64,000 bases of DNA from Prevotella sp. Lineage in GTDB: Bacteria > Bacteroidota > Bacteroidia > Bacteroidales > Bacteroidaceae. Shown in pieces: positions 9,001 through 43,592 of the stretch. The notes under the pieces are model-generated. The model had not been told where the DNA came from, searched no databases, and worked only from the letters and a program-made list of their open reading frames with translations. Positions within the stretch are counted from its first letter, which is position 1. Each line of letters begins with the position of its first letter. Made by a program: the position numbers and the translations under genes. The DNA lies in NCBI GenBank assembly GCA_017651265.1, contig JAGCDO010000026.1, forward strand, positions 1 through 64,000. The letters are read 5' to 3'.

Positions 9001-11321
9001 TTCTTTTTCGCGTTCTGCGCCTCAATCACGTGCATGCACTCTTCAAGAGTCAGTTCCGCAGCTTTGGCGTGCATGGCCTTTGGCAGTCGGTAGTTCTTAC
9101 CGTCGTAAGCAAGATAAGGACCATATCTTCCGTTGAGCACCTCCAGCTTAGGATCCTCTTCGAAGGACTTCAGGTGGCGCTGTGTCTCCTGCTTGCGCTT
9201 ATCTTCAATCAGCTGGATACATTCTTCAAGGCTGATGGTCATGGGGTCGGCTTCCTTCGGAAGAGAAACATACTTCTTGTCATGCAGCACATAAGGTCCG
9301 AAACGACCTGTACCGATAACCACATCACTGTTCTCGTAGGTGCCTACAGTACGGGGAAGACTGAACAGATCCAGTGCCTCGTCGAGCGTAATGGTCTCCA
9401 TGCTCTTTCCGGCAGGCAGCTGGGCGAAGCGCGGCTTCTCCTTATCTTCAGCGGTACCAATCTGGATGACTGGTCCAAAGCGGCCGATCTTGACAAATAC
9501 GGGCTTGCCGGTATTGGGATCTGTACCCAGTTCGCGTTCGCCAGCCTTATGCTCCTCGCGGGCATTCATGGTCTTCTCCACGGTGGGCTCAAAGTCCTTG
9601 TAGAACTTCTTGATCATACTGGTCCACTGCTTCCTGCCCTCGGCAATATCATCGAACTCCTTCTCCACCTTGGCAGTGAAATTGTAGTCCATAATCTGCG
9701 GGAAAAACTTCATCAGGAAATCGTTCACCACCATACCGATATCTGTGGGGAGCAGTTTTCCCTTGTCGCTTCCGGCCATTTCCTTACGACTTCTGGTTGT
9801 AACCTTGATGCCCTGAAGGATATCAATGGTGTATTTGCGCTCCTCACCTTTCTTGTCACCTTTCTGCACGTATTCACGCTGCTGAATGGTAGAGATGGTG
9901 GGGGCGTAAGTGGAAGGACGACCGATGCCCAGTTCCTCCAGCTTATGCACAAGAGAGGCTTCCGTATATCTGAGCGGACCTTGGGTGAATCGTTCCGTAG
10001 CACTGATCTCTCTGCGCTGAAGAACATTGCCGGTCTTCATCGGAGGCAGCACATGTGAGAAATCATCCTGGTTCTCATCCTCGTCGTTGGATTCGCGGTA
10101 AACCTTCAGGAAACCGTCGAATTTCACCACTTCACCCTGTGCGATGAAGGCATACGGTTGTGTATTGTTACCGTTGTTGATGCTGATCTCAGCTGTGGTC
10201 TTCTCTATCTGTGCATCTGCCATCTGTGAGGCAATGGTGCGCTTCCAGATCAGGTCATACAAACGACGTTCCTGAGCAGTACCTTCAATAGACGACTTGT
10301 TCATATAAGTAGGACGAATAGCCTCATGTGCCTCCTGAGCACCTTTCGAGTGCGTATGGAACTGTCGGGTATGACTGTATTCCTTACCCCACAGGTTTGT
10401 GATCTCTTCCTTGCTTGTACCCAGACAAAGAGAGGAGAGGTTCACAGAGTCGGTACGCATATAGGTGATATGTCCGTTCTCGTAGAGATGCTGAGCCACC
10501 ATCATGGTCTGACTTACCGTGAAGCCCAGCTTGCGGGCAGCTTCCTGCTGAAGGGTACTGGTGGTGAAGGGAGGAGCGGGGTTACGCTTCTGCGGTTTCT
10601 TCTGAATATCCTTCACCACAAACTCGCTCTCCTTGCAGATCTCCAGGAAAGCCATCACTTCGTCGTGTGTCTTGAACCGGGTGTCGAGCTCAGCCTTCAC
10701 CTCACTCTGCGAACCATCAGCATTTGTCAATCCGAAGATGGCGCTGACACGGTAGTAGGGCTCACTCTTGAAGTTCTGGATCTCGCGTTCACGCTCAACG
10801 ATCAGTCGAACGGCAACACTCTGTACACGACCGGCTGACAAGGCGGGCTTCACCTTTCGCCAAAGCACGGGAGAGAGCTTGAAGCCAACAAGGCGGTCGA
10901 GTACACGACGGGCCTGCTGGGCATTCACCAGGTTCATGTTCAGATGACGAGGATTCTCGATAGCAGCCAGAATGGCGGGTTTGGTAATCTCGTGGAAAAC
11001 GATACGGTTGGTTTTCTCTTCATCCAGTCCGAGCACTTCGCAAAGGTGCCATGAGATGGCTTCTCCTTCGCGGTCTTCATCGGAAGCCAGCCAGATGTTC
11101 TCTGCCTTCTTCGCGTTCGACTTCAGTTCGCTGACCAGTTTCTTCTTTTCATCAGGAATCTCGTAGTCAGGTTCCAGAGATTCCATCTCTATACTGATTT
11201 CTTTTTTCTTCAAGTCGCGGATATGCCCATAGCTCGACATCACCTTGAAATCCTCTCCTAAGAATTTCTCAATTGTCTTAGCCTTTGCCGGGCTCTCTAC
11301 AATGACCAGATTCTTCTGCAT
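8997..11321 (-). CDS. topA: DNA topoisomerase I (type IA)
   Basis: Relaxes negative supercoils. The Toprim domain starts at once (LVIVESPAKAKTIEKFLG, then SDEDREGEAISWHL with the DxD metal site). The active-site tyrosine is in HITYMRTDSVNLS. The C terminus has no zinc-finger cysteine clusters; it carries repeated Topo_C units seen as KIGRFGPVIQIG, GTGRFGPYVLH and GRYGPYLAYDG, a common Bacteroidota form. 774 aa. It heads the operon with aroK, speA and argB. A TACTTTTG box at 11348-11355 on the minus strand may be its -7 element. Confidence 0.96.
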   Translation of the reverse strand: MQKNLVIVESPAKAKTIEKFLGEDFKVMSSYGHIRDLKKKEISIEMESLEPDYEIPDEKKKLVSELKSNAKKAENIWLASDEDREGEAISWHLCEVLGLDEEKTNRIVFHEITKPAILAAIENPRHLNMNLVNAQQARRVLDRLVGFKLSPVLWRKVKPALSAGRVQSVAVRLIVEREREIQNFKSEPYYRVSAIFGLTNADGSQSEVKAELDTRFKTHDEVMAFLEICKESEFVVKDIQKKPQKRNPAPPFTTSTLQQEAARKLGFTVSQTMMVAQHLYENGHITYMRTDSVNLSSLCLGTSKEEITNLWGKEYSHTRQFHTHSKGAQEAHEAIRPTYMNKSSIEGTAQERRLYDLIWKRTIASQMADAQIEKTTAEISINNGNNTQPYAFIAQGEVVKFDGFLKVYRESNDEDENQDDFSHVLPPMKTGNVLQRREISATERFTQGPLRYTEASLVHKLEELGIGRPSTYAPTISTIQQREYVQKGDKKGEERKYTIDILQGIKVTTRSRKEMAGSDKGKLLPTDIGMVVNDFLMKFFPQIMDYNFTAKVEKEFDDIAEGRKQWTSMIKKFYKDFEPTVEKTMNAREEHKAGERELGTDPNTGKPVFVKIGRFGPVIQIGTAEDKEKPRFAQLPAGKSMETITLDEALDLFSLPRTVGTYENSDVVIGTGRFGPYVLHDKKYVSLPKEADPMTISLEECIQLIEDKRKQETQRHLKSFEEDPKLEVLNGRYGPYLAYDGKNYRLPKAMHAKAAELTLEECMHVIEAQNAKKK

Positions 11322-31155: not shown

Positions 31156-31198
31156 GCGCTTCAGGATGGGCTTGAACCAACGACCCCCTGATTAACAG
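31156..31198. repeat. attL: 43-bp direct repeat, 3' part of tRNA-Asn
   Basis: Identical over 43 bp to 43518-43560. It covers the tRNA-Asn gene from the anticodon loop to 1 nt past the discriminator base. Outside the repeat the two copies differ at once. This copy lacks the 5' tRNA half and is a remnant left by integration. Confidence 0.95.
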
Positions 31199-31482: not shown

Positions 31483-31902
31483 TTAAGGAGCTCTCCATTC
31501 TGTTTCATCTGGTTCTGTCAGATCCAGATTTGACTCCTTGTTGAAATATCTAATGAAGTTCAAGTAAAGTGAGTCTTTGTATTCATTGACAATCGCTTTG
31601 TTTAGTAACTTGTTTCTATTGATGAAGTAATCTTCTAAAGATCCTTCGATTTCTATCTAATAGTATTGTAACCATATCCTTGCTATCTCTTTATTCCAAA
31701 CACACCATTCTCCGTAATGATATAGCTCTGGAGGAATCAGTGTGTGGATCTTTTTTTCAGTTATCTTATCTCCTTTTCTCAGATCCATAACCTAGAACGA
31801 AGGATTATGTGTAAGATAGATTCTCATCCTTTTGAAGAAAGAAACCTTATCTCTTGAATAGCCAACCTTGCAGTAGTTACCACTCTTGATGAAGTATATC
31901 AT
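31483..31902 (-). CDS. GIY-YIG (T5orf172/MUG113-like) nuclease read through two TAG codons
   Basis: Reading TAG as an amino acid gives a 139-aa protein ending at TAA. It starts MIYFIKSGNYCKVGYSRDKV, continues SFFKRMRIYLTHNPSF, then TAG (codon 37, 31792-31794), VMDLRKGDKITEKKIHTLIP, PELYHYGEWCVWNKEIARIW, LQYY, TAG (codon 82, 31657-31659), IEIEGSLEDYF. YFI, KVG, the Arg in KRM, the E/H of EKKIH and GEW follow the T5orf172-type GIY-YIG order. With TAG as stop only 36 residues are made, with no catalytic site. The start lies 1 nt after the TGA of the helicase gene. It should be absent from standard gene calls. Confidence 0.75.
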
Positions 31903-31903
31903 A

Positions 31904-33670
31904 TCAGATATTTAAGTTAAACAGGGGATCCCCCATCAGATAACCATTCACCTTCTTCCCATCTATGTACTAGCTAGATCTTTCTACGCTGTAGATGTCG
32001 CATTTCAGTATCTAAGTTGCTTTGGGTGACAAAGAGATACCAAGTCTCTGGAACTGTTCTGTTAGCAAGAGTTTCATATCCTTGTTGCTGATGAAAGCTC
32101 CCCTTTTGTAGATTGCCCTGAAAGCCTACTGGAGTTTCTTGTTATCCTCCACTGCTTTCATCATTCTTTCTTTGTTCCATCTAAGGCTGTTCATCTCAGT
32201 CTCTTTGAGATATAGCCTAAAATCCTTGAACTCTGGATATTCTATTTCGTATTGTTCTGAAGGATGCTCCAGATAGTCTTTTAGTAGTTTCTCATAGGAA
32301 ATTGTTACTGCGCGTGCTAGTTGTAAATCGAACTCATCCCAGTATGCTTGTTTTGTCTGCACAAACTTCTCTGATTTATTATAGGCTGCTCTCAGATTAA
32401 TTCCGTTTTTATATGCCTCTCTAATTTTTTGTTTCCTGATAAATGCTTTCTTCTTTAACTCATTACGGACTAATCGGCCTTCTTCTATAGACAATATGTC
32501 ATTTTCGATGTTGACCCTCTTGATGAGAGTATTCAACTCTTCCTTATCTGCTTTTGCCTGTAGTGTCAATAGATGAGTTGCGGCCTCTTCCCTTCTAAGC
32601 ATTACAGTTTCAAACTCTTCCTGAGACAAGATGTTATTATTGGTAGAGTAAATGTGTACCATTGTGTTTCGGAAGATATTGTGGTACTCGTCATTCTCTC
32701 TGAGCCTACCACTAATCTGCTCCATTGTTGTAGTTATATCCACTAACGTTTGTGTTCTATGTACGTCACTAGCCACAATAATAAGACCATTATTAGAAAA
32801 CAGGTTGCATCCTTGGAAGCTCTTTTTAGTAAAGAAGTTTATCCTCTTGTTTGGTGATATAGCGGACTCTCTCTTGAATCTCCCTAGGATAAGTCTGTTA
32901 CGTTGTCTTTGTGCACAGCAGATCTTTACTTCATCTTCTTCTAGTTCAAGTGTGTCAATGATCTGCTTTATTGTCGTTACTGAGTTTAAGAAGATGAATA
33001 GCTGTTCAACCCTCCTTCTCTCTCCATTAACATCTGGCAGGTAGATACCTTCTTCTTTAAACATTCGAATATATTTGGCCAATCCAAGTGGTAAACATGT
33101 TGCCTTGATCTTCTTTACTGTTATGGGTAAACCTTGTGGCCAGACAACCTTGTAGTGGGGTAAAATCTTGAAAACATCGATTTCATAATCTTCATCTATC
33201 GGAGTTGCAGAGAGAAATGTATAATGGTTAAACTTATGTATGCTCCAGCACATTCGCATGATCGCAGACTCTCGATAATCCATATCTTCTAAAATGAGGT
33301 GGTACTCGTCTATTAGAATCTTCCAACCATTAGTGTTGTTCCCAATCCACTTTAAGAGTTTATCTAGACTGTCATAGGTAACAGCAATCTTGTATATCTT
33401 GTGGTCTTTGATGTACTTTCGGAACTGGTTTTCTCTTACGCCACCATAGCACTTGAATACTGCGTACTTGTTATTCTTATCAGCTGAAATGCTATCCACC
33501 AAGTCCCTGAATGGACACACTATTATGTAATTGTATCTACAATTTACGGCACAGAATGTACCGCCAACATCTGTTTTTGTCTTATTGACTATGCCATGAG
33601 GCAATCCGTCTTGAAATTCAGAAAGCTCGCTAAGGTAACGAGCGTTTCCTGCATAAATAGTCTTTATCAT
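31904..33670 (-). CDS. Phage-type SF2 helicase with three in-frame TAG codons
   Basis: With TAG as stop the product is 514 aa; with TAG read through it is 588 aa, ending at TGA (31904-31906). TAGs are at 32126-32128, 32012-32014 and 31970-31972. SF2 motifs: a phosphate-binding segment GIVNKTKTDVGGTF (residues 26-39), ILIDEYHLIL (DEYH, 121-124), FLSATP (SAT, 154-156) and QISGRLRE near residue 320. All lie before the first TAG. The extension reads AFRAIYKRGAFISNKDMKLL and on to YIDGKKVNGYLMGDPLFNLN, compact and protein-like, resembling the C-terminal part of helicases of Bacteroidota phages. The start ATG is at 33670. Function in the element: replication or interference (inference). Confidence 0.8.
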
Positions 33671-33736: not shown

Positions 33737-33785
33737 ACAGAATATTTTTCATGCATTTATAGGATAGCCTTGAAAAAACCGTTCT
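33737..33785. repeat. Hairpin repeat, copy 1
   Basis: Starts ACAGAATATTTTTCATGC and ends TGAAAAAACCGTTCT. AGAAC/GTTCT and TTTTTCA/TGAAAAA can pair. Lies 70-120 nt upstream of the helicase start. Copy 2 is at 34079-34128. Confidence 0.6.
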
Positions 33786-34078: not shown

Positions 34079-34128
34079 ACAGAATATTTTTCATGCTTTT
34101 GAATAGTATATCTGAAAAAATTTGTTCT
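34079..34128. repeat. Hairpin repeat, copy 2
   Basis: Same opening 18 bases as copy 1 and the same paired blocks (ACAGAA/TTCTGT extended, TTTTTCA/TGAAAAA). The pairing is kept although the arms differ in places. Preceded by a tandem GGTACAGAAC/TGGTACAGAA. Confidence 0.6.
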
Positions 34129-34502: not shown

Positions 34503-34847
34503 CTACCTTCGTATTTGCGGAGATAATACTATATCTATCAAGCTACTAATATGCTTAATCATTGTATCTTTCTTGTTATATAGAATACCAATATTAGCTA
34601 AAGCGAATGCAGTCATAGAACAAGAGTATAATGCCCATTCTCCTTGAAACTGAGAACCTATAAAGTTTGGCATTTTATTTAACAATTGTTCTGGACTGCT
34701 TTCAGTAACACTTGAAATAAGATAATTTGCACGACGAATAATGCCTTTTTCTTCTTTATCAATTTTTCCAATATGCCAAATATTCATGACTGTCCACAGA
34801 TATTTTAAGGCAAATGGAATAAGAAGAATAGTAATTACATATATCAT
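34503..34847 (-). CDS. Small membrane-anchored protein of unknown function
   Basis: 114 aa. One N-terminal membrane segment (MIYVITILLIPFALKYLWTV), then a soluble domain with a possible second hydrophobic helix (CSMTAFALANIGILY). Its ATG follows the TAA of a 45-aa membrane peptide with no gap, so the two should be translated together. Family not recognised. Confidence 0.55.
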   Translation of the reverse strand: MIYVITILLIPFALKYLWTVMNIWHIGKIDKEEKGIIRRANYLISSVTESSPEQLLNKMPNFIGSQFQGEWALYSCSMTAFALANIGILYNKKDTMIKHISSLIDIVLSPQIRR

Positions 34848-34985
34848 TTATTCTGAATCAATTATTTCTGATAATTCATCCATTTCCACATCCTTTCTGT
34901 GTTTGGAAACTATTTGCATGGCTTTTCCAACGGAAATAATACCAAATACTAAGAAAGCTACAAAGATAATAAAAGCTAGTAACAT
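34848..34985 (-). CDS. 45-aa single-span membrane peptide
   Basis: MLLAFIIFVAFLVFGIISVG, then KAMQIVSKHRKDVEMDELSE and IIDSE: one hydrophobic helix and a short charged tail. TAA at 34848-34850 abuts the next ATG. A TACCTTTTT box about 30 nt upstream of the start may be the -7 element. Small hydrophobic peptides paired with a second protein can be toxins, holin-like proteins or sensor anchors; nothing here decides. Confidence 0.5.
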   Translation of the reverse strand: MLLAFIIFVAFLVFGIISVGKAMQIVSKHRKDVEMDELSEIIDSE

Positions 34986-35253
34986 AATTAATTATTTAAA
35001 TTGTTGTTATTAAAAAGGTAAATCATTTTAAGTTTGGCAACAGCAAAATTACACCATTTCTTGAACACTCGACCACCCATAACGATTGTAGTACGAAATG
35101 AGTGGTTTCGCTTAACATCCCCCATGGCACATCATAGCCCAAAAGCCTAATGCGACTCATAATAGAACTAATTGTATAGCTTTCCAAATCTCTTTTTCAT
35201 CATTCATAGTCTATCACTATTATCATATTGTATCATAGATTCTAACTGGATAA

Positions 35254-35631
35254 TTAACGAAATAAACTATTAATTTGCGAAATGCCCTTTCTCAGCTCTA
35301 TTAGCAGTTCTTCTTGTGGAAAGTTTTTAAGGTATTCATAAAGATTATTAAATGATGCGTTATCTTCAAGATATGAAACATGTAGAGCAAAATGAGTGTC
35401 CATATTTAAAGATAAGTTATCCTTGAATTGTTCCCAGAATCCCTTTTTCTTTGGTTTGTTTTGCTCGTTGTATTGACGTACTAGGTTATCGTGAATTTCT
35501 TTTATCTGATTATATAAATCCATCTGGTGAGCAGCCTTTGCATAAGCAGCAACAGTAGAAAGAGTCACTATGTAATTATTGAATTCTTCAGAAGGACAGG
35601 TAATCGTGTGATGTACAGGTATTCTGATCAT
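35254..35631 (-). CDS. Cytoplasmic protein of unknown function
   Basis: 125 aa, mostly helical: NYIVTLSTVAAYAKAAHQMD, a Lys-rich middle (NKPKKKGFWEQFKDN) and a C-terminal helix (LLIELRKGISQINSLFR). No signal, no membrane segment. No family recognised. It follows two secreted-protein genes on the same strand inside the element. Confidence 0.6.
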   Translation of the reverse strand: MIRIPVHHTITCPSEEFNNYIVTLSTVAAYAKAAHQMDLYNQIKEIHDNLVRQYNEQNKPKKKGFWEQFKDNLSLNMDTHFALHVSYLEDNASFNNLYEYLKNFPQEELLIELRKGISQINSLFR

Positions 35632-35794
35632 AATTATATTGTTTATTATTGATTAGTATTTCTTGTTTATTTTGAGTGAAGGAACTTTGTCTTTTCACTC
35701 TGTTCTTTTGGGTTAAACGACTCAACCAGTCACAACCTAATGGAGTCATTTGTCCACGAAGAAGTGTAGTCAGGTTTCTTTTACTAGGAATCAT
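35588..35794 (-). CDS. Possible 68-aa basic protein
   Basis: Starts by a TGATG overlap with the stop of the secreted-protein gene upstream: MIPSKRNLTTLLRGQMTPLG, then a basic stretch. It overlaps the start of the following gene by 44 nt in another frame, which lowers confidence. No family recognised. Confidence 0.3.
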   Translation of the reverse strand: MIPSKRNLTTLLRGQMTPLGCDWLSRLTQKNRVKRQSSFTQNKQEILINNKQYNYDQNTCTSHDYLSF

Positions 35795-36408
35795 CAAAAA
35801 CCAGCGGATGCATCACCCCTTTCTAAGGATGTGCCTTTTTCATTACCTGATTCACTCTTCTTGGTTTTAGGTTTAGTCAATTCTTTTTTCTCGATGTTAT
35901 CAAACATTGTTTTAAATTGCTTACCCATTTTGTCCTTTGTAAACTCTTTTTCTGGATAATCCAAGAAAGGTGTTTTTTTCTCTTTATTATATGAGAGCAT
36001 TTCAACTCTAATCTTGGAAATGCCAGTAAAGATTTTATTCAACTGATCGAGTGAAATTGGATAGTATGCGGTAGGCTCCCAAACCCCATCTTTTAAACAT
36101 ACTAATTCAGATAAGACAGACGTAAGCTCAATTATCTCCCCATCAAATGTTTTAAACAACAATTTGCAGTCATTGGGGAAATTGTGGTATTCGTTTTCTT
36201 CTGATCTTCCACGTATAAAGTATTGGTTTTCACCGTTACAAATATACTTCTCAAGGTTGTATCTGAAAAAATTCTCAAAATCTATTGTTTTATATTTAGA
36301 TTGAATACGACGAACGCCATTTTCAATCTCGTCTGACGCAATTTCTTGAGAGAAAATGCTATTAGTAAAAACAATAAGTACAGTTGTTAATAAAATACGC
36401 AATTTCAT
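35794..36408 (-). CDS. Secreted protein of unknown function (element-borne)
   Basis: 204 aa with a signal peptide (MKLRILLTTVLIVFTNSIFS). Mature part is mixed alpha/beta (NGENQYFIRGRSEENEYHNF, LLFKTFDGEIIELTSVLSEL) and ends in a Lys/Ser/Glu-rich tail (KKELTKPKTKKSESGNEKG) that looks disordered. Ends with TGA. One of two exported proteins carried by the element; a surface or exclusion role is possible but unproven. Confidence 0.65.
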   Translation of the reverse strand: MKLRILLTTVLIVFTNSIFSQEIASDEIENGVRRIQSKYKTIDFENFFRYNLEKYICNGENQYFIRGRSEENEYHNFPNDCKLLFKTFDGEIIELTSVLSELVCLKDGVWEPTAYYPISLDQLNKIFTGISKIRVEMLSYNKEKKTPFLDYPEKEFTKDKMGKQFKTMFDNIEKKELTKPKTKKSESGNEKGTSLERGDASAGF

Positions 36409-36563
36409 ATTAATCTATTATTATTGGTTTGATAATCTATCATAAACGATCTATAATTACCCTTACTCATCTTCTATAGCAGAGAATTTGAGATTACCTG
36501 TATGTGTTTCGAACATAATTGACCTCGTTGCAGAAGTTGGGCAATATTAGGTTTCATTAAAAA

Positions 36564-37334
36564 TCAGAAATACAGCGTAAGTTGTCCAAGTTGTGCGCGT
36601 TGTTTTTTTGATGCTGTCTCTCTGTTTACTGTGGAATTAGAAGTACGTGCACCACCATTGTTCGGATATATTTGAACAGGTTGAATATTATCCCATATTT
36701 GGCGTCCTTGATAGTCTCTACCGGAGCAATAGGCAACAACCTTATCGCCTTGGACGCGTATAAGGAGGTTGTTAAGACCGCCCTGACCTGCATATATGGC
36801 TTCAATGGTCTGTTCTGGCTGCTGGCTGCTAGGACTGTTCATTGCAGTTGTCCCTGCAAATGTCCCAATATTCTGAGTATTTTGTACAGAATAACTTGTA
36901 GTAGGCTGCGAGATGATCGATTGTTCCTTCTTTCCATCATCTGTTGTTTCTTGGCGCTTATCTGCTTGTTGCTGTATTGCGGTTAATGCACCAGTTATGC
37001 CCCCACTGATTGCTCCTAAAGCATGAAGCCAAGCTTCTGCTTCAACATGTTCAACAACATCCCTGAATTGAACTAGTTCTTCCGCTTTGGTATTCATGTC
37101 TATTTCTTCTTTATGGGCGCGATAGTAATTACGTGCTTCAGTTATTACTTTTTCCTGATCTGGGCCAGGCGTAGTAATATTATTAGTTTCCAACACATAT
37201 GAAATGTAATTCATTTCACTTTGATTCTCATTGACTCCAAAGAATTGGAACAACAGATGTGAATTTGACGTTTGAGCTATTATGTTTCCACAAAAAAGGA
37301 GACATAATGAAATAAAGAAAACCTTTTTCCCCAT
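36564..37334 (-). CDS. Secreted protein of unknown function with Gly-rich centre
   Basis: 256 aa with a signal peptide (MGKKVFFISLCLLFCGNIIA). A helical N-terminal part (VITEARNYYRAHKEEIDMNT) is followed by a small-residue stretch (LHALGAISGGITGALTAI), a Gln/Ser/Thr-rich linker and a C-terminal beta segment (GGLNNLLIRVQGDKVVAYCS). The Gly-rich hydrophobic stretch is reminiscent of membrane-inserting segments, which is inference. It lies directly downstream of the structured RNA candidate, whose fold may control it. Confidence 0.65.
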   Translation of the reverse strand: MGKKVFFISLCLLFCGNIIAQTSNSHLLFQFFGVNENQSEMNYISYVLETNNITTPGPDQEKVITEARNYYRAHKEEIDMNTKAEELVQFRDVVEHVEAEAWLHALGAISGGITGALTAIQQQADKRQETTDDGKKEQSIISQPTTSYSVQNTQNIGTFAGTTAMNSPSSQQPEQTIEAIYAGQGGLNNLLIRVQGDKVVAYCSGRDYQGRQIWDNIQPVQIYPNNGGARTSNSTVNRETASKKQRAQLGQLTLYF

Positions 37335-37742: not shown

Positions 37743-38381
37743 CTATAGATTGAACTCTGTCTTGATCCTTTGTACTGTACTGATACCCTTGTTTGTAAGC
37801 TTGGCCACGTTCCGCACAGAGTATCCACGTTTCAGGTAAGAGATAATATCCTTATGCTCTTCTTTCTTCTGCTCTGTAGTCTTGACACTACCCACCTTGC
37901 GACCAAGTTTTCCACCTCGTTCAACATATAGCTTGCGGCCACTATTCAGACGAAACTTGATATTCTCTCGTTCAAGTTGTGCACATGTTGAGAGTGTCGC
38001 TATCATGATCGGTGCGAACATGGTGGGCTTTCCCTCATTGTCAAGAAGGGTAAGCTGTTCTTTCTGCATATAGAGGTTGATCCCATTATCTATGAGGTCT
38101 TTCACTGTGGCCAGAACCTCAAAGGCATTTCTTCCAAGTCTGGAAAGCTCACTTACTAACAGGATGGAAATACTGTTGGCCTTACAGTATTCGATGGCCT
38201 TCTGCAAGACGGGGCGTTCCGTGTTCTTCTTTGCTCCAGAAATGTGTTCCTCGTAGATCTTGCAAATATCCCAATGCTGGTATTCCACATAATCAAGGAG
38301 GTCTGAAATCTGGCGGTCTGTGCTTTGTCTGTCTCCTACGCTTGACACTCTGGCGTAGATAACTGCAGTTGTTGTACTCAT
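37743..38381 (-). CDS. Serine recombinase (resolvase/invertase type)
   Basis: About 212 aa. The catalytic domain starts AVIYARVSSVGDRQSTDRQI (nucleophile Ser in ARVSS) with LLVSELSRLGRNAFEVL; the E-helix is followed by GGKLGRKVGS and a short C-terminal helix-turn-helix (HKDIISYLKRGYSVRNVAKL). This is the small resolvase/invertase architecture, so it probably resolves or inverts DNA rather than integrating the element. It ends with TAG as an ordinary stop. An AATCTTTG box ends 6 nt before the ATG at 38381, implying a leaderless mRNA. Confidence 0.9.
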   Translation of the reverse strand: MSTTTAVIYARVSSVGDRQSTDRQISDLLDYVEYQHWDICKIYEEHISGAKKNTERPVLQKAIEYCKANSISILLVSELSRLGRNAFEVLATVKDLIDNGINLYMQKEQLTLLDNEGKPTMFAPIMIATLSTCAQLERENIKFRLNSGRKLYVERGGKLGRKVGSVKTTEQKKEEHKDIISYLKRGYSVRNVAKLTNKGISTVQRIKTEFNL

Positions 38382-38475
38382 TTTAATCAAAGATTAGGTT
38401 GGTAACGGAAAAGAGCATGCCCAGTAAACTTTCAGAGATTTGTTTGAACACACTCGTTAATTGAACACATTGGAA

Positions 38476-38529: not shown

Positions 38530-39537
38530 CTAACCAAGAAACCATTGGTATGTTGAATCACCTTGCAGTGCGTTGTTGATGCCAACACTTACTTCCGTAG
38601 CGTTGACCGCACGTTGCAGGTAACTGTCAATGTAGCTGCTCTTGTTGGATTCAGTTAGCAGATTGTGGAAGTTCCACATGGAAATAGCACCTCCTTTCCC
38701 TCCGAAATCAGGACTACTATAGTAATCCCTGCACACATTGTTTATCTGGGAGTCAGTAATCATCAGGCGAGGCAGGCGTTTTTGAGCTCCCGTTGGCAAA
38801 GCCTGATAGAGTCTCATTCTTCCAATAATCTGTGCAAACTGTGTCTCTGTGAGGTAGGAATTGGATAGCTGCTGCATCAAATGAATGTCCTTAGCAGGAT
38901 TGAAACTGTAGAACATTTCCATTACCTGTTCGTATAGTTGTTTCAATTCCATTACCTCCATAGAGAGTTTCACACCCTGCCCTGTAAGAATCTGGTTGGA
39001 ACAGATGCACACTCTCCAGCCAACAAAGACAGAGAACTTTTCTACGCCCTTAGATGCTCTATAGAGATTCAGGTCATTGTAGTTCCTGACACCTCCGATG
39101 CAGAGCTCCAATTTCTGACCGTTGATCGTCTCATAGATGGTAGGAATGGTGAAAGCGAAAGCCAGTCTCTGGTAGAACTGTGTCTTCTCACATTCCAACA
39201 GCTCTGATGCTTTCTTTCCTAATGCGTCTGGAGTTCTGCCCCTGACGATGTGGGAAACCCTGATGGAAGGAGTGGAAATTGTTTCACCCTGATAGAAAGA
39301 CTTGGCTGCATCATGCACACAGTCGATGAAGTCCTGATGTGAAATAGTTAGCTCCTGATTCGCCCACGTAGGAACTACACAGAGGTTTCTTAACTCGTTC
39401 ATAGTGATTGCATTGGTGTTTGCATCCAAGAAACTCACACAAGAACTGGTAACAGGCTGCTCAACGATTTCTTCGTAGTCAGCGTACTCAAAACGGTTGC
39501 TGTTTGTGGCCACAGCTGGCATTAAAACTTGCTCCAT
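38530..39537 (-). CDS. DUF3871 family protein
   Basis: 335 aa. The segment FLDANTNAITMNELRNLCVVPTW...LTISHQDFIDCVHDAAKSFY, the GQKLELCIGGVRNYNDLNLY block and VFVGWRVCICSNQILTGQGV match the DUF3871 family, found on Bacteroidota mobile elements. Function unknown; the family is often next to integrases and single-strand DNA functions. Stop is TAG, followed at once by a terminator. Upstream is a set of three 24-bp spaced repeats likely to control it. Confidence 0.8.
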   Translation of the reverse strand: MEQVLMPAVATNSNRFEYADYEEIVEQPVTSSCVSFLDANTNAITMNELRNLCVVPTWANQELTISHQDFIDCVHDAAKSFYQGETISTPSIRVSHIVRGRTPDALGKKASELLECEKTQFYQRLAFAFTIPTIYETINGQKLELCIGGVRNYNDLNLYRASKGVEKFSVFVGWRVCICSNQILTGQGVKLSMEVMELKQLYEQVMEMFYSFNPAKDIHLMQQLSNSYLTETQFAQIIGRMRLYQALPTGAQKRLPRLMITDSQINNVCRDYYSSPDFGGKGGAISMWNFHNLLTESNKSSYIDSYLQRAVNATEVSVGINNALQGDSTYQWFLG

Positions 39538-39681: not shown

Positions 39682-39777
39682 TTCATATTTAAAAGGTAGG
39701 GGGGATTAAAAGTGGGTAAAGTGGCATGGGCAGAACTAATAACAAAAAATGAATGAGGTGTTTTCGATTTTATTGTG

Positions 39778-39785
39778 TATCTTTG
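39778..39785 (+). promoter_or_regulatory. -7 element of the 39790 gene
   Basis: Exact TATCTTTG; the ATG begins 4 nt later, so transcription would start at or next to the start codon. Confidence 0.55.
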
Positions 39786-39789
39786 TGGC

Positions 39790-40824
39790 ATGATTGAGAT
39801 TATTCCTATTAAAGAGTACGAAAGAACAGGATTTATGGATTATCCATATCTTGAAGATCCCATGTTTGAATATTTGAATCAGGTGGCTAATTATTTCTGG
39901 TGGGAACCAGATCCTGAATTTGATGAAGAAACCTGTGAAGAGTATTATTTACGAACTCCGTCTTTTGTGCCAAGTAGGTTTGCTCGTAGGTATTTGGATG
40001 GAAAAATAGACCTCAGCACAATGCCTTTATATATTGAAGCTGTAGGAGAAGAAGTTCAGAAGAAGCACGTTTCTATGGATGAAATTGATAACACTTCATC
40101 AGAGGAGATGCGTATCTCAAAGGATGATGTGCCCATTATTTCAATGACTCTGAAAGCCTTTGGATTAGACCACTCAAAATTCTGGTATTTATGTGTATGT
40201 ATTAAAGACTGGGTTGAGGGTCAAACTTGTGAAGGTGCAAGAATAGGTAATCCTACACACAGAGAGGAATTAGAGACCTTTGTTGCAGAATTGAATAGGC
40301 TTGATCCTAAACCTTGGGGTGGGAATATCAAAACGAAAGGCAAAGCCAAACTGACCTTAAACGTAAAAGGGAGAAACACCATTATTGAGGATGGACAAAC
40401 TCTTGCACTTATAGGATATGCTGTTTACAACTTCTTAGATTCGGACGTTTGTAAGAAAACGGTATTGGTTGATGGCAAAGAAACCAGAGTTCAGAAAAAC
40501 AGCACATTACTTGACATCTCTAAGGTGAGCGACAAGAAACTCACTAAACAGATGGCCAAAACCGTAAGACTAGCATTGTTCTATAAATATCTTAGTTGGT
40601 TCATGAAGCATAGGGAGGTAGATGAAGACCTTGTCAACAAATCCCCCTACTTAGTTTTTACGAACAGGGATCTTCTCATCTCGCGTATGGCATATTTTAC
40701 AGGCCTTACTAATGATAATAGATTTTTGGAACCAGACGATGCTGGGAAGGGGTATATTCGTACTGCCATAAGTGGTTATGAAGGGATAGAAGTAAAAGTA
40801 CACAACAAGTATTATGGTATTTGA
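39790..40824 (+). CDS. Element protein of unknown function
   Basis: 344 aa. Acidic N-terminal part (EPDPEFDEETCEEYYLRTPS), Lys-rich middle (IKTKGKAKLTLNVKGRNTII) and a basic C-terminal domain (LVFTNRDLLISRMAYFTGLT). No enzyme motif recognised. The TTG/ATG context just before (39775) lies inside the promoter, so the ATG at 39790 is chosen. An alternative internal start at 39835 has AGGA 5 nt upstream and would fit if the mRNA is not leaderless. Divergent from DUF3871 across the 24-bp repeats. Confidence 0.65.
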   Translation: MIEIIPIKEYERTGFMDYPYLEDPMFEYLNQVANYFWWEPDPEFDEETCEEYYLRTPSFVPSRFARRYLDGKIDLSTMPLYIEAVGEEVQKKHVSMDEIDNTSSEEMRISKDDVPIISMTLKAFGLDHSKFWYLCVCIKDWVEGQTCEGARIGNPTHREELETFVAELNRLDPKPWGGNIKTKGKAKLTLNVKGRNTIIEDGQTLALIGYAVYNFLDSDVCKKTVLVDGKETRVQKNSTLLDISKVSDKKLTKQMAKTVRLALFYKYLSWFMKHREVDEDLVNKSPYLVFTNRDLLISRMAYFTGLTNDNRFLEPDDAGKGYIRTAISGYEGIEVKVHNKYYGI

Positions 40825-41024: not shown

Positions 41025-41984
41025 ATGTATAAAAAAACACCCACCACAGAAGTGGTAGAAGAGAGAAACAACGTGATTAATGAGATCACTAGTATTAACA
41101 ATCCTAAATCGGCAGATATGGTTAAGGAGAATGAAGAAGAGGTTGTGTATGTAACAAAAACCGCTATTATTGAAGGAGCAGAAATAGAAATCGTATTAGC
41201 CTTCACAGAGTACGATATGGAACAACCTAAAGACGGTAAAAAGCTGATGGAGAAAATAGACACCTCCATGCTCTTTAAGTGTTTTTACCACTTGACTAAG
41301 CCTGACATTTTCTGGAAAGAAGGTGTTAAGTTGGTTGACGAGAACGGGAACACTATAGAAGAGGGAACAGAAAACGTATATGTTTCGTGTCCTACATCAG
41401 AAACATTCTGGCGAAGGGGACTTGAAGAAAAGCTGGAATATGTGGAGATTCACACTTTTAAGTCTGTTAAAGAGTATGCTCAGGCTGTTGGATGTACGAA
41501 TCTCTACAGCCGTGGACTCAGCAACATCGAAAAAATAGGTATTGCAGCCTTAGCGACTGGCGATGAAGCTTGCAAAACGGTTTATGAGTTTGCGAAAGAG
41601 AACAAACTGAACGTGACTACAGCGAAACTCTATCTTGATTACAAAGTTAAACCCGCAGACATTCAAAGTATGACTATGGGTATTTGGGAAGAGGCTAGGC
41701 CAGAGCTTGGTCGCAAGAAAGAAGAAGCACAAGAGTTACTGGACAAAGTTAAGGAGAAATTTGGTAAAAATGCACAGAAAAGATATGTGATCAGAGTCGT
41801 TAATTCACTGCTACATACAAATGATGACTATTCATTAGAGAAGGTGAAGGAAGCAATCGGCCAAGTCACAGAGGCAGAAGCGGAAAAAATTAAGGATGCC
41901 AACAGCGCAGAAAAGGAAACAATAATCTGTAACATACTAACAAGGAAGCTTTCAGAGAATCACGAAACTGAGGAAGCAGCTTGA
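41025..41984 (+). CDS. Element protein of unknown function
   Basis: 319 aa, highly charged. Acidic N-terminal region, a central domain (TFKSVKEYAQAVGCTNLYSR, IGIAALATGDEACKTVYEFA) and a helical C-terminal half rich in Lys/Glu (KVKEKFGKNAQKRYVIRVVN). The helical part could be DNA-binding (ParB/KorB-like arrangement), but no diagnostic motif is seen. Transcribed toward the integrase, convergent with it. Confidence 0.6.
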   Translation: MYKKTPTTEVVEERNNVINEITSINNPKSADMVKENEEEVVYVTKTAIIEGAEIEIVLAFTEYDMEQPKDGKKLMEKIDTSMLFKCFYHLTKPDIFWKEGVKLVDENGNTIEEGTENVYVSCPTSETFWRRGLEEKLEYVEIHTFKSVKEYAQAVGCTNLYSRGLSNIEKIGIAALATGDEACKTVYEFAKENKLNVTTAKLYLDYKVKPADIQSMTMGIWEEARPELGRKKEEAQELLDKVKEKFGKNAQKRYVIRVVNSLLHTNDDYSLEKVKEAIGQVTEAEAEKIKDANSAEKETIICNILTRKLSENHETEEAA

Positions 41985-42051: not shown

Positions 42052-43320
42052 TTATTTACAAAAAACGAACTTTACGACCTTGGCATTAGCTTTATTTTCG
42101 TTCACAAAGTCTCGTTCAATGTAGATGTCTGTGACACGCATGGATTCATCTACATGGTTAAGTGCTGCATGGACTGTGTACTTATCGATCCTGCATTTGT
42201 TGAGGGCAATGGTAGCCCATGAGTGACGTCCACAGTAGAATTCCAGATCGTCTATCTTCAATTGTTCCCCAATCTCTTTCAGCCCCTTGTTGATAGCCTT
42301 GTTGAATCCCTTGTGGTCACAGTAGTATTGATAGAAGTTGAATAGACGTTTACCTGTGCGATCACGATATTTCTCTATGATTGGCAGTACCATCTTAGGG
42401 ATGATCACTTCCATTTTGGCCTTATCAAGTCTGCGGTCTTTGGTCTTAGTACGGTAGTAAACAAGTCTGTTGCCTTGAAAATCTGTAGCATTGTATAGGT
42501 CAACAGAGTTTATCCCCATCAGGCAGAACGAGAGAATGAAGCAATCCTTAGCAAGATCGAAACGGCATGTGCTTTTCGCTCCCTTATGGATATTCTGGTA
42601 AGGCATTTCCCAGATCGCCTTTATTTGTTGAGGCAAGATAGCACGCTTACGGGTAGCCTCCTGTTTGGGAATCTTGAAATATTCAAACGGAGTGTGAGGG
42701 ATACGCATAAGTCCTTTATCGGGTTTGTTGAAGAACTTTTGAGCCTCGCTAAAGAGATGACGTAGAATCATTAGATAGAGAGACAAACAGCGGTTAGATG
42801 GTACGCGTTTCCCTGCTTCTGCTATTTTTTTCACTCTCTCTGCTCGTTCCTTTATTATATAGTCGCGGTACTGCTCTAATAGGTCAACGGTGATATTCTT
42901 GATGTCAAATTCTTCTTTGCCAAGGAAACGAATAAAGGCATTGAGGCCTGTTGTGTAAGTGTCCTTGCTCTTAATCGGAGCGGCAGCAATCCAATTTTTA
43001 CTGAAAGCTATAAAATCAATGGGTTTCTCAGCTTCTTCTTTGTTAAGCAGACGATTCACAATTTCAATAACATCGTAATTCTCAGAATCAAGATGCAGGG
43101 ATGCAAACATCATCCTGTAGTGTAGCACAAGACGGTCTGCCTCCTGCTTTACAATGGAATCCTCTTTCAACTTCAAGTCTGTCGTAAGGTCAGCCTCAGT
43201 AGCGAATAAGTTTGTTGATATTCGCCTTACCTTTTTGTCCTTGATAAATCGTACTTTTACGTTGTACATTCCATCCATTCTCTTTTTGTCCTTTAGGACT
43301 TCTGCTCTGATTGTCAGCAT
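42052..43320 (-). CDS. Tyrosine recombinase (integrase)
   Basis: 422 aa. N-terminal arm-binding domain (MYNVKVRFIKDKKVRRISTN), core-binding domain (WIAAAPIKSKDTYTTGLNAF), then the catalytic domain: FILSFCLMGINSVDLYNATD, the beta-hairpin lysine in RTKTKDRRLDKAK, box II FYCGRHSWATIAL, HVDESMRVTDIYIERDF with the nucleophile Tyr in DIYIE. In the usual place of the first catalytic Arg (G-L-R) the sequence reads GIN, a variant seen in some Bacteroidota integrases. It lies 198 bp from attR and should excise and integrate the element at tRNA-Asn. Confidence 0.93.
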   Translation of the reverse strand: MLTIRAEVLKDKKRMDGMYNVKVRFIKDKKVRRISTNLFATEADLTTDLKLKEDSIVKQEADRLVLHYRMMFASLHLDSENYDVIEIVNRLLNKEEAEKPIDFIAFSKNWIAAAPIKSKDTYTTGLNAFIRFLGKEEFDIKNITVDLLEQYRDYIIKERAERVKKIAEAGKRVPSNRCLSLYLMILRHLFSEAQKFFNKPDKGLMRIPHTPFEYFKIPKQEATRKRAILPQQIKAIWEMPYQNIHKGAKSTCRFDLAKDCFILSFCLMGINSVDLYNATDFQGNRLVYYRTKTKDRRLDKAKMEVIIPKMVLPIIEKYRDRTGKRLFNFYQYYCDHKGFNKAINKGLKEIGEQLKIDDLEFYCGRHSWATIALNKCRIDKYTVHAALNHVDESMRVTDIYIERDFVNENKANAKVVKFVFCK

Positions 43321-43517: not shown

Positions 43518-43560
43518 GCGCTTCAGGATGGGCTTGAACCAACGACCCCCTGATTAACAG
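43518..43560. repeat. attR: 43-bp direct repeat within intact tRNA-Asn
   Basis: Identical to 31156-31198. This copy is joined to the tRNA 5' half, so it restores a complete gene after integration. The 5' boundary falls in the anticodon stem-loop, a usual crossover site for tyrosine integrases. Confidence 0.95.
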
Positions 43561-43592
43561 TCAGGTGCTCTAACCAACTGAGCTACTGAAGC
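43519..43592 (-). tRNA. tRNA-Asn (anticodon GUU)
   Basis: 74 nt: acceptor GCTTCAG/CTGAAGC (7 perfect pairs), D stem GCTC/GAGC, anticodon loop CTGTTAA giving GUU, T arm with TTCAAGC loop, discriminator G. CCA not encoded. Its 3' 42 nt come from the integrated element. Confidence 0.95.

Follow-up and report, generated by a model that had tools for sequence, protein, structure and literature searches.

Can two adjacent genes in a bacterium with the standard genetic code be translated in full only when UAG is read as an amino acid? The question is raised by a locus in the window (the whole 64,000-nucleotide stretch that was analysed), which lies in contig C23 of a 3.16-Mb, 94% complete Prevotella genome (G000). 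On the minus strand, a gene for an SF2-type helicase (31904..33670; 588 codons, ATG at 33670, TGA at 31904; the fold assignment is based on an intact relative) runs through in-frame TAGs at codons 515 (32126), 553 (32012), and 567 (31970). After a gap of 1 base, a small, weakly GIY-YIG-like partner gene (31483..31902, minus strand; 139 codons, ATG at 31902, TAA at 31483) runs through TAGs at codons 37 (31792) and 82 (31657). These frames, coordinates, and TAG positions, proposed in a first-pass annotation, were reproduced base for base, and our recount agrees with its figure of about 727 codons: the pair totals 588 + 139 = 727 codons, interrupted by five TAGs and by no other stop or frameshift. 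The TAGs are not sequencing errors, since an element with the same five is present in a second genome, Tb.RUG.501 (G484), one of three close-relative carriers in the same genus, together with Prevotella sp. MA2016 (G281:C9) and the MAG RUG10994 (G464). The chance that five stops are all TAG is 0.003 to 0.045, a range over sequence and mutation models, so the window locus by itself is suggestive and the family-wide tally decides. A 42-nt imperfect repeat lies 5' of the helicase gene (33737-33778 and 34079-34120); among 15 loci, it occurs only in the window, L067, and (in part) L031, and it is possibly a regulatory or replication site.

Searches at three taxonomic levels matched the helicase in 43 of 399 family genomes (with a query ended at the first TAG), 26 of 398 genus genomes, and 21 of 393 order genomes. 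Stops interrupt 3 of the 63 places matched at the family level (1 TAG; 2 TAG; and, in the decayed copy G257:C1:998758, 2 TAG plus 2 TAA), 10 of 33 at the genus level (nine with TAG only and one, the best match in G711, with a TGA), and 4 of 27 at the order level (3 TAG; 4 TGA; 5 TGA; 1 TAG). We then tallied stops over 32 loci with genomic context, short loci L001-L030 being left out, and counted those helicase-family matches that span 60 aa or more with E values up to 1e-12; the window and its twin L067 were entered separately (3 TAGs each), and the overlapping loci L032 and L081 have one integrase-proximal copy in common. The resulting 38 regions contain 32 TAGs, spread over 13 regions and reaching 6 in a single gene, together with 6 TGAs, all in two copies from genome G1138, and a lone TAA that is the ordinary terminator of the intact L170 open reading frame. 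The partner gene, found in 5 of 200 genomes, carries TAG in four of its six places and no other stop; its seven TAGs fall in four loci (one in L066 and two each in L067, the window, and L072). Under a looser alignment, the G711 locus L080 has 3 TAAs and 3 TGAs and zero TAGs; it is a decayed or misaligned copy, and its stops count against a blanket statement that only TAG occurs. The TAGs range from codon 9 (L068) through motif VI (L033, L071, and L072) to the C-terminal domain (window), and because their positions scatter in this way, there is no truncated form in common; a conserved short product was accordingly rejected.

Comparison of the interrupted copies with their relatives indicates what TAG stands for. 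Gln makes up 29.4% of the residues aligned with 29 TAGs in a 20-row alignment that includes the window allele once (L035 was dropped, its TAGs lying at or after the true end), compared with 3.1% in columns drawn at random from those rows, with other residues unremarkable; 0 of 2,000 random draws reached that share, a figure that is not a strict probability, as the rows are related. In L071, L072, and L033, a TAG occupies the motif-VI Gln position, where all 14 of the other rows with a residue have Gln. Another Gln column is TAG in the window, L067, L065, and L070, CAG in L031, L066, L069, and L078, and CAA in L032, a distribution that, placed on the tree, requires repeated exchange. The expectation that all five TAGs of the window would sit on conserved Gln columns was borne out for three of them in MA2016, the nearest intact homologue, whose residues at the five sites are Q, Q, H, Q, and K: helicase codons 515 and 553 and partner codon 37 correspond to Gln, codon 567 to His in MA2016 or Gln in L066, and partner codon 82 to Lys or Asn. 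Elsewhere in the family, some TAGs of L032, L068, L072, L073, and L070 fall where Val, Cys, Lys, Asp, or Glu predominates, which counts against the explanation that we favor below. Together, the Gln enrichment at TAG columns and the occurrence of TAG as the only stop in 13 of the 38 regions uphold the proposal that TAG is a sense codon, for Gln, in an integrated bacterial element. By sequence, the two genes of the window treat UAG as a sense codon and the family treats it as Gln, and we regard it as nearly certain that UAG is read as Gln in these genes.

The same interruptions might be expected of dying genes, and decay does occur in this family: besides the stops in G257 (2 TAGs and 2 TAAs) and G711 (a TGA in its best match, and 3 TAAs and 3 TGAs over a longer, weak alignment), the L072 partner copy is split over two frames. 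Against decay as the general explanation, single substitutions would be expected to make TAG 0.31 to 0.41 of all stops in intact helicases (as much as 0.54 in the partner gene); at the helicase values, 36 of 36 stops being TAG would have a probability near 1e-14 or less. Between the window and MA2016 (L031), pS and pN are 0.73 and 0.090 for the helicase, 0.71 and 0.114 for DUF3871, and 0.77 and 0.076 for the recombinase, and two TAG-bearing copies, L065 and L069, differ by a pS of 0.77 and a pN of 0.12. We also counted residues unique to one of three copies (window, L031, or L066), with L069 as the outgroup. Behind the first helicase TAG, a short part of 69 to 72 codons, the window has 0 unique changes, L031 has 7, and L066 has 1, and on this basis the window copy is not relaxed behind its TAGs; the corresponding counts are 23, 7, and 9 before the first TAG, 12, 5, and 5 in DUF3871, and 4, 10, and 3 in the partner gene behind its own first TAG. 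The window pN/pS is 0.20 to 0.24 behind the first helicase TAG versus 0.11 to 0.12 over the whole gene. As a control, DUF3871 was matched in 20 of 185 genomes, and 22 of its 23 places are free of stops, the exception being a 60-residue fragment with 1 TGA and 2 TAGs. More broadly, no stop interrupts 225 of 257 homologous regions, a set from which L086 and five duplicate or overlapping loci were omitted, and the chromosomal exceptions outside the helicase, partner, antisense, and flank frames are limited to one stop in each of the DUF3871 and F4 genes of L074 and the L077 integrase gene. A reading by decay would need a TAG-specific mutation process, and we know of none. The TAG share, the Gln specificity, the unrelaxed tail, and the stop-free control genes thus practically rule out ordinary pseudogene decay, to which we assign a negligible probability, in agreement with the first-pass argument that random decay would not produce this pattern.

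What the pair encodes is clearer for the first gene than for the second. The helicase matches the Pfam DEAD family with E values of 7.9e-5 to 1.5e-4, under the curated cut-off, and its alignment has conserved DE, SATP, and QxxGRxR columns, which we take, by their motif names, to be helicase motifs. The intact MA2016 protein yields a predicted structure of moderate quality (pLDDT 70, pTM 0.56) that matches SF2 helicases in the PDB (E = 4e-8, with low TM scores), and by motifs and a modeled two-domain fold, the product of the window gene is an SF2 helicase. The last 85 residues of the MA2016 model, which are well predicted, look winged-helix-like in the order of their helices and strands, and the first helicase TAG of the window would cut off most of this C-terminal part. 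A sequence search of the PDB gave zero matches, and the serine recombinase was the sole match in an NCBIfam scan. The GIY-YIG-like label given to the partner gene has weak backing, in the form of sub-threshold similarity in two relatives (T5orf172, E = 0.028, for the L078 copy; MUG113, E = 0.0015, for a crAss relative). Weak relatives of this gene occur in 5 Kehishuvirus-type (crAss-like) records. In one crAss-like relative (L178:601-1146), the terminal stretch resembles, by eye, the helicase C-terminal domain, including a PKAT motif.

The pair occupies the end opposite the integrase of a 12.4-kb element integrated in a tRNA-Asn gene (43518..43592, minus strand). A 43-nt part of the tRNA gene (43518-43560) is repeated exactly 12,362 bases away, at 31156..31198, as the distal att copy, and GC content is 0.33 to 0.42 inside the element against mostly 0.44 to 0.54 outside. 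Beyond the helicase, the minus strand carries four cargo open reading frames of unassigned function (34503..37334; 114, 125, 204, and 256 aa), a serine recombinase (37743..38390), and a DUF3871 protein (38530..39537; PF12987). These are followed by two conserved unknown proteins on the plus strand, F5 (39775..40824) and F6 (41025..41984), and by a tyrosine-type integrase of family F2 (42052..43320, minus strand; the Pfam integrase domains were found in the F2 member of L077). In the literature consulted, DUF3871 had a single passing mention. Among nine window proteins, no structural PHROG rose above chance, the nearest being a weak match to a terminase small subunit (E = 0.081); no known-satellite gene family was recognized in the element; and PADLOC gave two weak matches, both to cargo open reading frames. 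With an integrase, a specific site flanked by att repeats, a small size, and no structural genes found, the element has these features in common with phage satellites.

Similar elements occur at other loci. Exact repeats of 43 to at least 60 nt flank 5.5 to 13.1 kb in 10 of the 18 tRNA-bearing loci examined (one of the other eight has a 16-nt repeat only, and seven have no repeat), and the tRNAs used across the repeat-bounded loci are those for Asn, Arg, Met, Lys, Phe, and Thr. The TAG-bearing helicase is distal to the integrase in the window, L067, L068, and L071, but not in L033; a paralogous helicase near the integrase in L066, L067, L069, and L081 is stop-free in all four copies. The cargo between DUF3871 and the helicase varies among elements, and the smallest layout, the 5.5-kb L077 element, consists of an integrase, the helicase, and two small open reading frames. 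Helicases are exchanged between elements, as L068 and L074 have DUF3871 proteins that are 99% identical and helicases that are 25% identical. Across 15 loci, the identities of the helicases correlate weakly with those of the DUF3871 proteins (r = 0.23), a value as high being reached in 183 of 5,000 permutations.

Which tRNA, then, could decode the pair? These bacteria might themselves read UAG as Gln at useful efficiency, or do so through an unseen suppressor tRNA, but the host has a prfA (RF1) gene above the curated cut-off, TAG ends 6 of the 39 host open reading frames of at least 100 aa outside the element, and as many as 6 TAGs would have to be read through in one gene. Inside the element, as the first-pass annotation had noted for neighboring genes, the DUF3871 gene, the serine recombinase gene, and the 114-aa open reading frame all terminate with TAG. 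No cognate CUA tRNA is encoded with the TAG-bearing genes in the element, over which Rfam places only the tRNA-Asn above threshold. The host genome gave 44 tRNA matches, the weakest not called by ARAGORN; the CTA anticodon is absent among the tRNAs called, a set that is incomplete, as Ala and Ile tRNAs are missing from it and the assembly is 94% complete. A pattern search for CUA tRNAs over 15 genomes, which tRNAs of other shapes can escape, returned 22 matches, comprising tRNA-Arg, non-tRNA sequences, and one tRNA in G657 (L205:1490-1609) that has a long insert in the anticodon arm and an anticodon that is not assignable. A CUA pattern match in L209 was not a tRNA according to ARAGORN or Rfam. 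The incomplete tRNA lists and the odd G657 tRNA speak for decoding by the host, and to that extent weigh against our preferred explanation, but with RF1 present, TAG in use as a stop, and a CUA tRNA neither called nor found by pattern in 15 genomes, we consider host decoding highly improbable.

Phages offer another source. In two IMG/VR contigs, L084 and L085, a stop-free helicase accompanies genes for TerL, portal, and major head protein, and their relative L088 has TAGs in TerL (7), portal (4), and helicase (1); six of these phage records yielded no tRNA. Of the viral contigs found, only L176 (L176:1-16756), a temperate phage, has a helicase that belongs to the window's subfamily (54% identical to that of the window). 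Its TerL, portal, and head protein genes hold 9, 7, and 2 TAGs, respectively, and none has a TAA or TGA (one TGA occurs in a weak match elsewhere on the contig). At 9117-9188, next to the helicase gene, L176 encodes a tRNA with anticodon CTA, labeled Pyl by ARAGORN, whose first half closely resembles the host tRNA-Gln. The L176 helicase itself has zero TAGs in 500 open codons, after which the frame changes. An initial scan of viral contigs with a single protein as the query had given no match. TerL genes of this phage kind were matched in 18 of 398 genus genomes and contain TAGs in one place (G420, with 7 TAGs), around which no tRNA was called in 40 kb. As to the crAss-like connection suggested at first, the partner gene is weakly similar to Kehishuvirus genes, and the clearest annotated phage relatives of the helicase are HK97-type temperate phages. 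A crAss origin of the helicase found no support, as no phage record hit with it was labeled Crassvirales (some hits are unclassified fragments).

The existence of phages with this helicase and TAG-rich genes, and the disagreement between the helicase and DUF3871 trees, would also suit repeated recent capture of genes from code-15 phages, the genes being nonfunctional from the moment they enter the element. Within the clade formed by the window, MA2016, and G464, however, the helicase, DUF3871, and recombinase genes have similar pS (given above for the window and MA2016) and therefore look inherited together; the L176 subfamily member lacks TAG in its open part; and the element, with its TAGs, is common to two genomes. 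Capture is, in our estimate, rather unlikely. Since the tRNA is missing from the element, the host uses UAG as a stop, and phages possess a suitable tRNA, decoding would probably come from outside, supplied by a stop-recoding phage.

On this basis, we suggest that a cell would complete the helicase and its partner only while it also contains a stop-recoding phage, or an induced prophage, that provides a CUA tRNA charged with Gln; the phage's own code would then be the switch for the pair. A resting cell would make only the truncated product, which in most carriers would lack the motor or its DNA-binding end. Less certainly, the element would be a phage satellite in which the helicase, which also occurs in temperate phages, may serve element replication or takeover during infection. 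Taken as a whole, a satellite-like element with a terminal pair that is fully translated only with a stop-recoding phage's tRNA is the explanation toward which we lean, if by a modest degree. It is supported by L176, a TAG-recoded temperate phage with both a CUA tRNA and a 54% identical helicase; the occurrence of a TAG-bearing TerL in only 1 of 398 genus genomes weighs against it, and we found no structural gene or phage hallmark that would tie the element to a helper. The same code gate could instead serve defense, the pair forming an anti-phage or inter-phage weapon switched on by the suppressor tRNA of the recoding phage. For a weapon, a gate that responds to the attacker would be fitting, structural genes were not found in the elements, and their cargo is variable; yet the helicase and partner match no PADLOC family, temperate phages also have the helicase family, which is what one would expect of a replication-type gene, and one 5.5-kb element holds little beyond integrase and helicase. 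We view such a defensive role as possible but doubtful.

Precedents for parts of the satellite model exist. Phage satellites of the PICI, P4-like, and PLE kinds are about 5 to 15 kb long, carry an integrase, integrate at att repeats, and lack structural genes. The element resembles them in size, integrase, att repeats, and the structural genes not found, but it has no recognized gene family of known satellites. Borges et al. (2022) reportedly described recoded phage genes together with a phage-borne suppressor tRNA. Lak megaphages of Prevotella are described as having TAG concentrated in some regions and as encoding a CTA-anticodon tRNA and RF2 (PMC6784885), code 15 is demonstrated by proteomics in crAss-like phages (PMC9523058), and a model is given in which a phage suppressor tRNA enables the production of recoded lysis and structural proteins (PMC10879173). 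The genes described here are like those of code-15 phages (Lak and crAss-like) in using TAG as Gln, but they differ in location: their 12-kb element sits in the chromosome of a bacterium with the standard code, has neither structural genes nor a CUA tRNA of its own, and includes other genes that end in TAG. Like the element, the recoded temperate phages L176 and L088 have this helicase family and genes (TerL and portal) in which TAG is the only in-frame stop; in such phages the tRNA is the phage's own, whereas the element would need an outside supply. Our literature search, thin on subscription journals, found no report of recoded genes in such elements. Stop-codon reassignment is usually treated as a property of phage genomes, and here it marks genes in small elements of standard-code bacteria; standard gene calling truncates such genes, which may nonetheless be functional. 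Should the gate prove real, the genetic code would serve as an infection sensor, and recoding would cost a phage by activating its parasites or its host's weapons.

A second code in the same gene family would also support the satellite explanation. Genome G1138, from another Bacteroidales family, contains two integrase-bearing loci with helicases (L167:9084-10949 and L168:8902-10803) that carry 5 and 6 in-frame TGAs and no TAG or TAA inside. One TGA common to both copies aligns with a Trp that all 17 other rows share, and a second common TGA falls at a column that is Trp in 4 of 17; elsewhere, the TGAs align with Phe, Leu, Asn, or Glu or sit in an initial stretch outside the alignment, and the small number of Trp columns counts against this explanation. 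TGA ends 12 of 48 G1138 open reading frames when the four helicase pieces are excluded and 16 of 52 when they are included, and no UCA tRNA was called by ARAGORN on the fetched loci. The G1138 helicases are likely a TGA = Trp counterpart in a standard-code genome, judging from these alignments. That bacterial mobile elements hold code-gated genes, which the host would be unable to translate, and that these arose in two codes, with TAG as Gln in Prevotella and in one relative within the Bacteroidaceae and with TGA as Trp in the other Bacteroidales family, with phage recoding as the signal for a satellite or weapon, is a proposition on which we are evenly divided. One of the TGA loci has an F5 gene like that of the window, and a third G1138 helicase has one TAG. 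Among viral contigs, L089:10070-11347 holds a helicase match with 3 TGAs and zero TAGs or TAAs.
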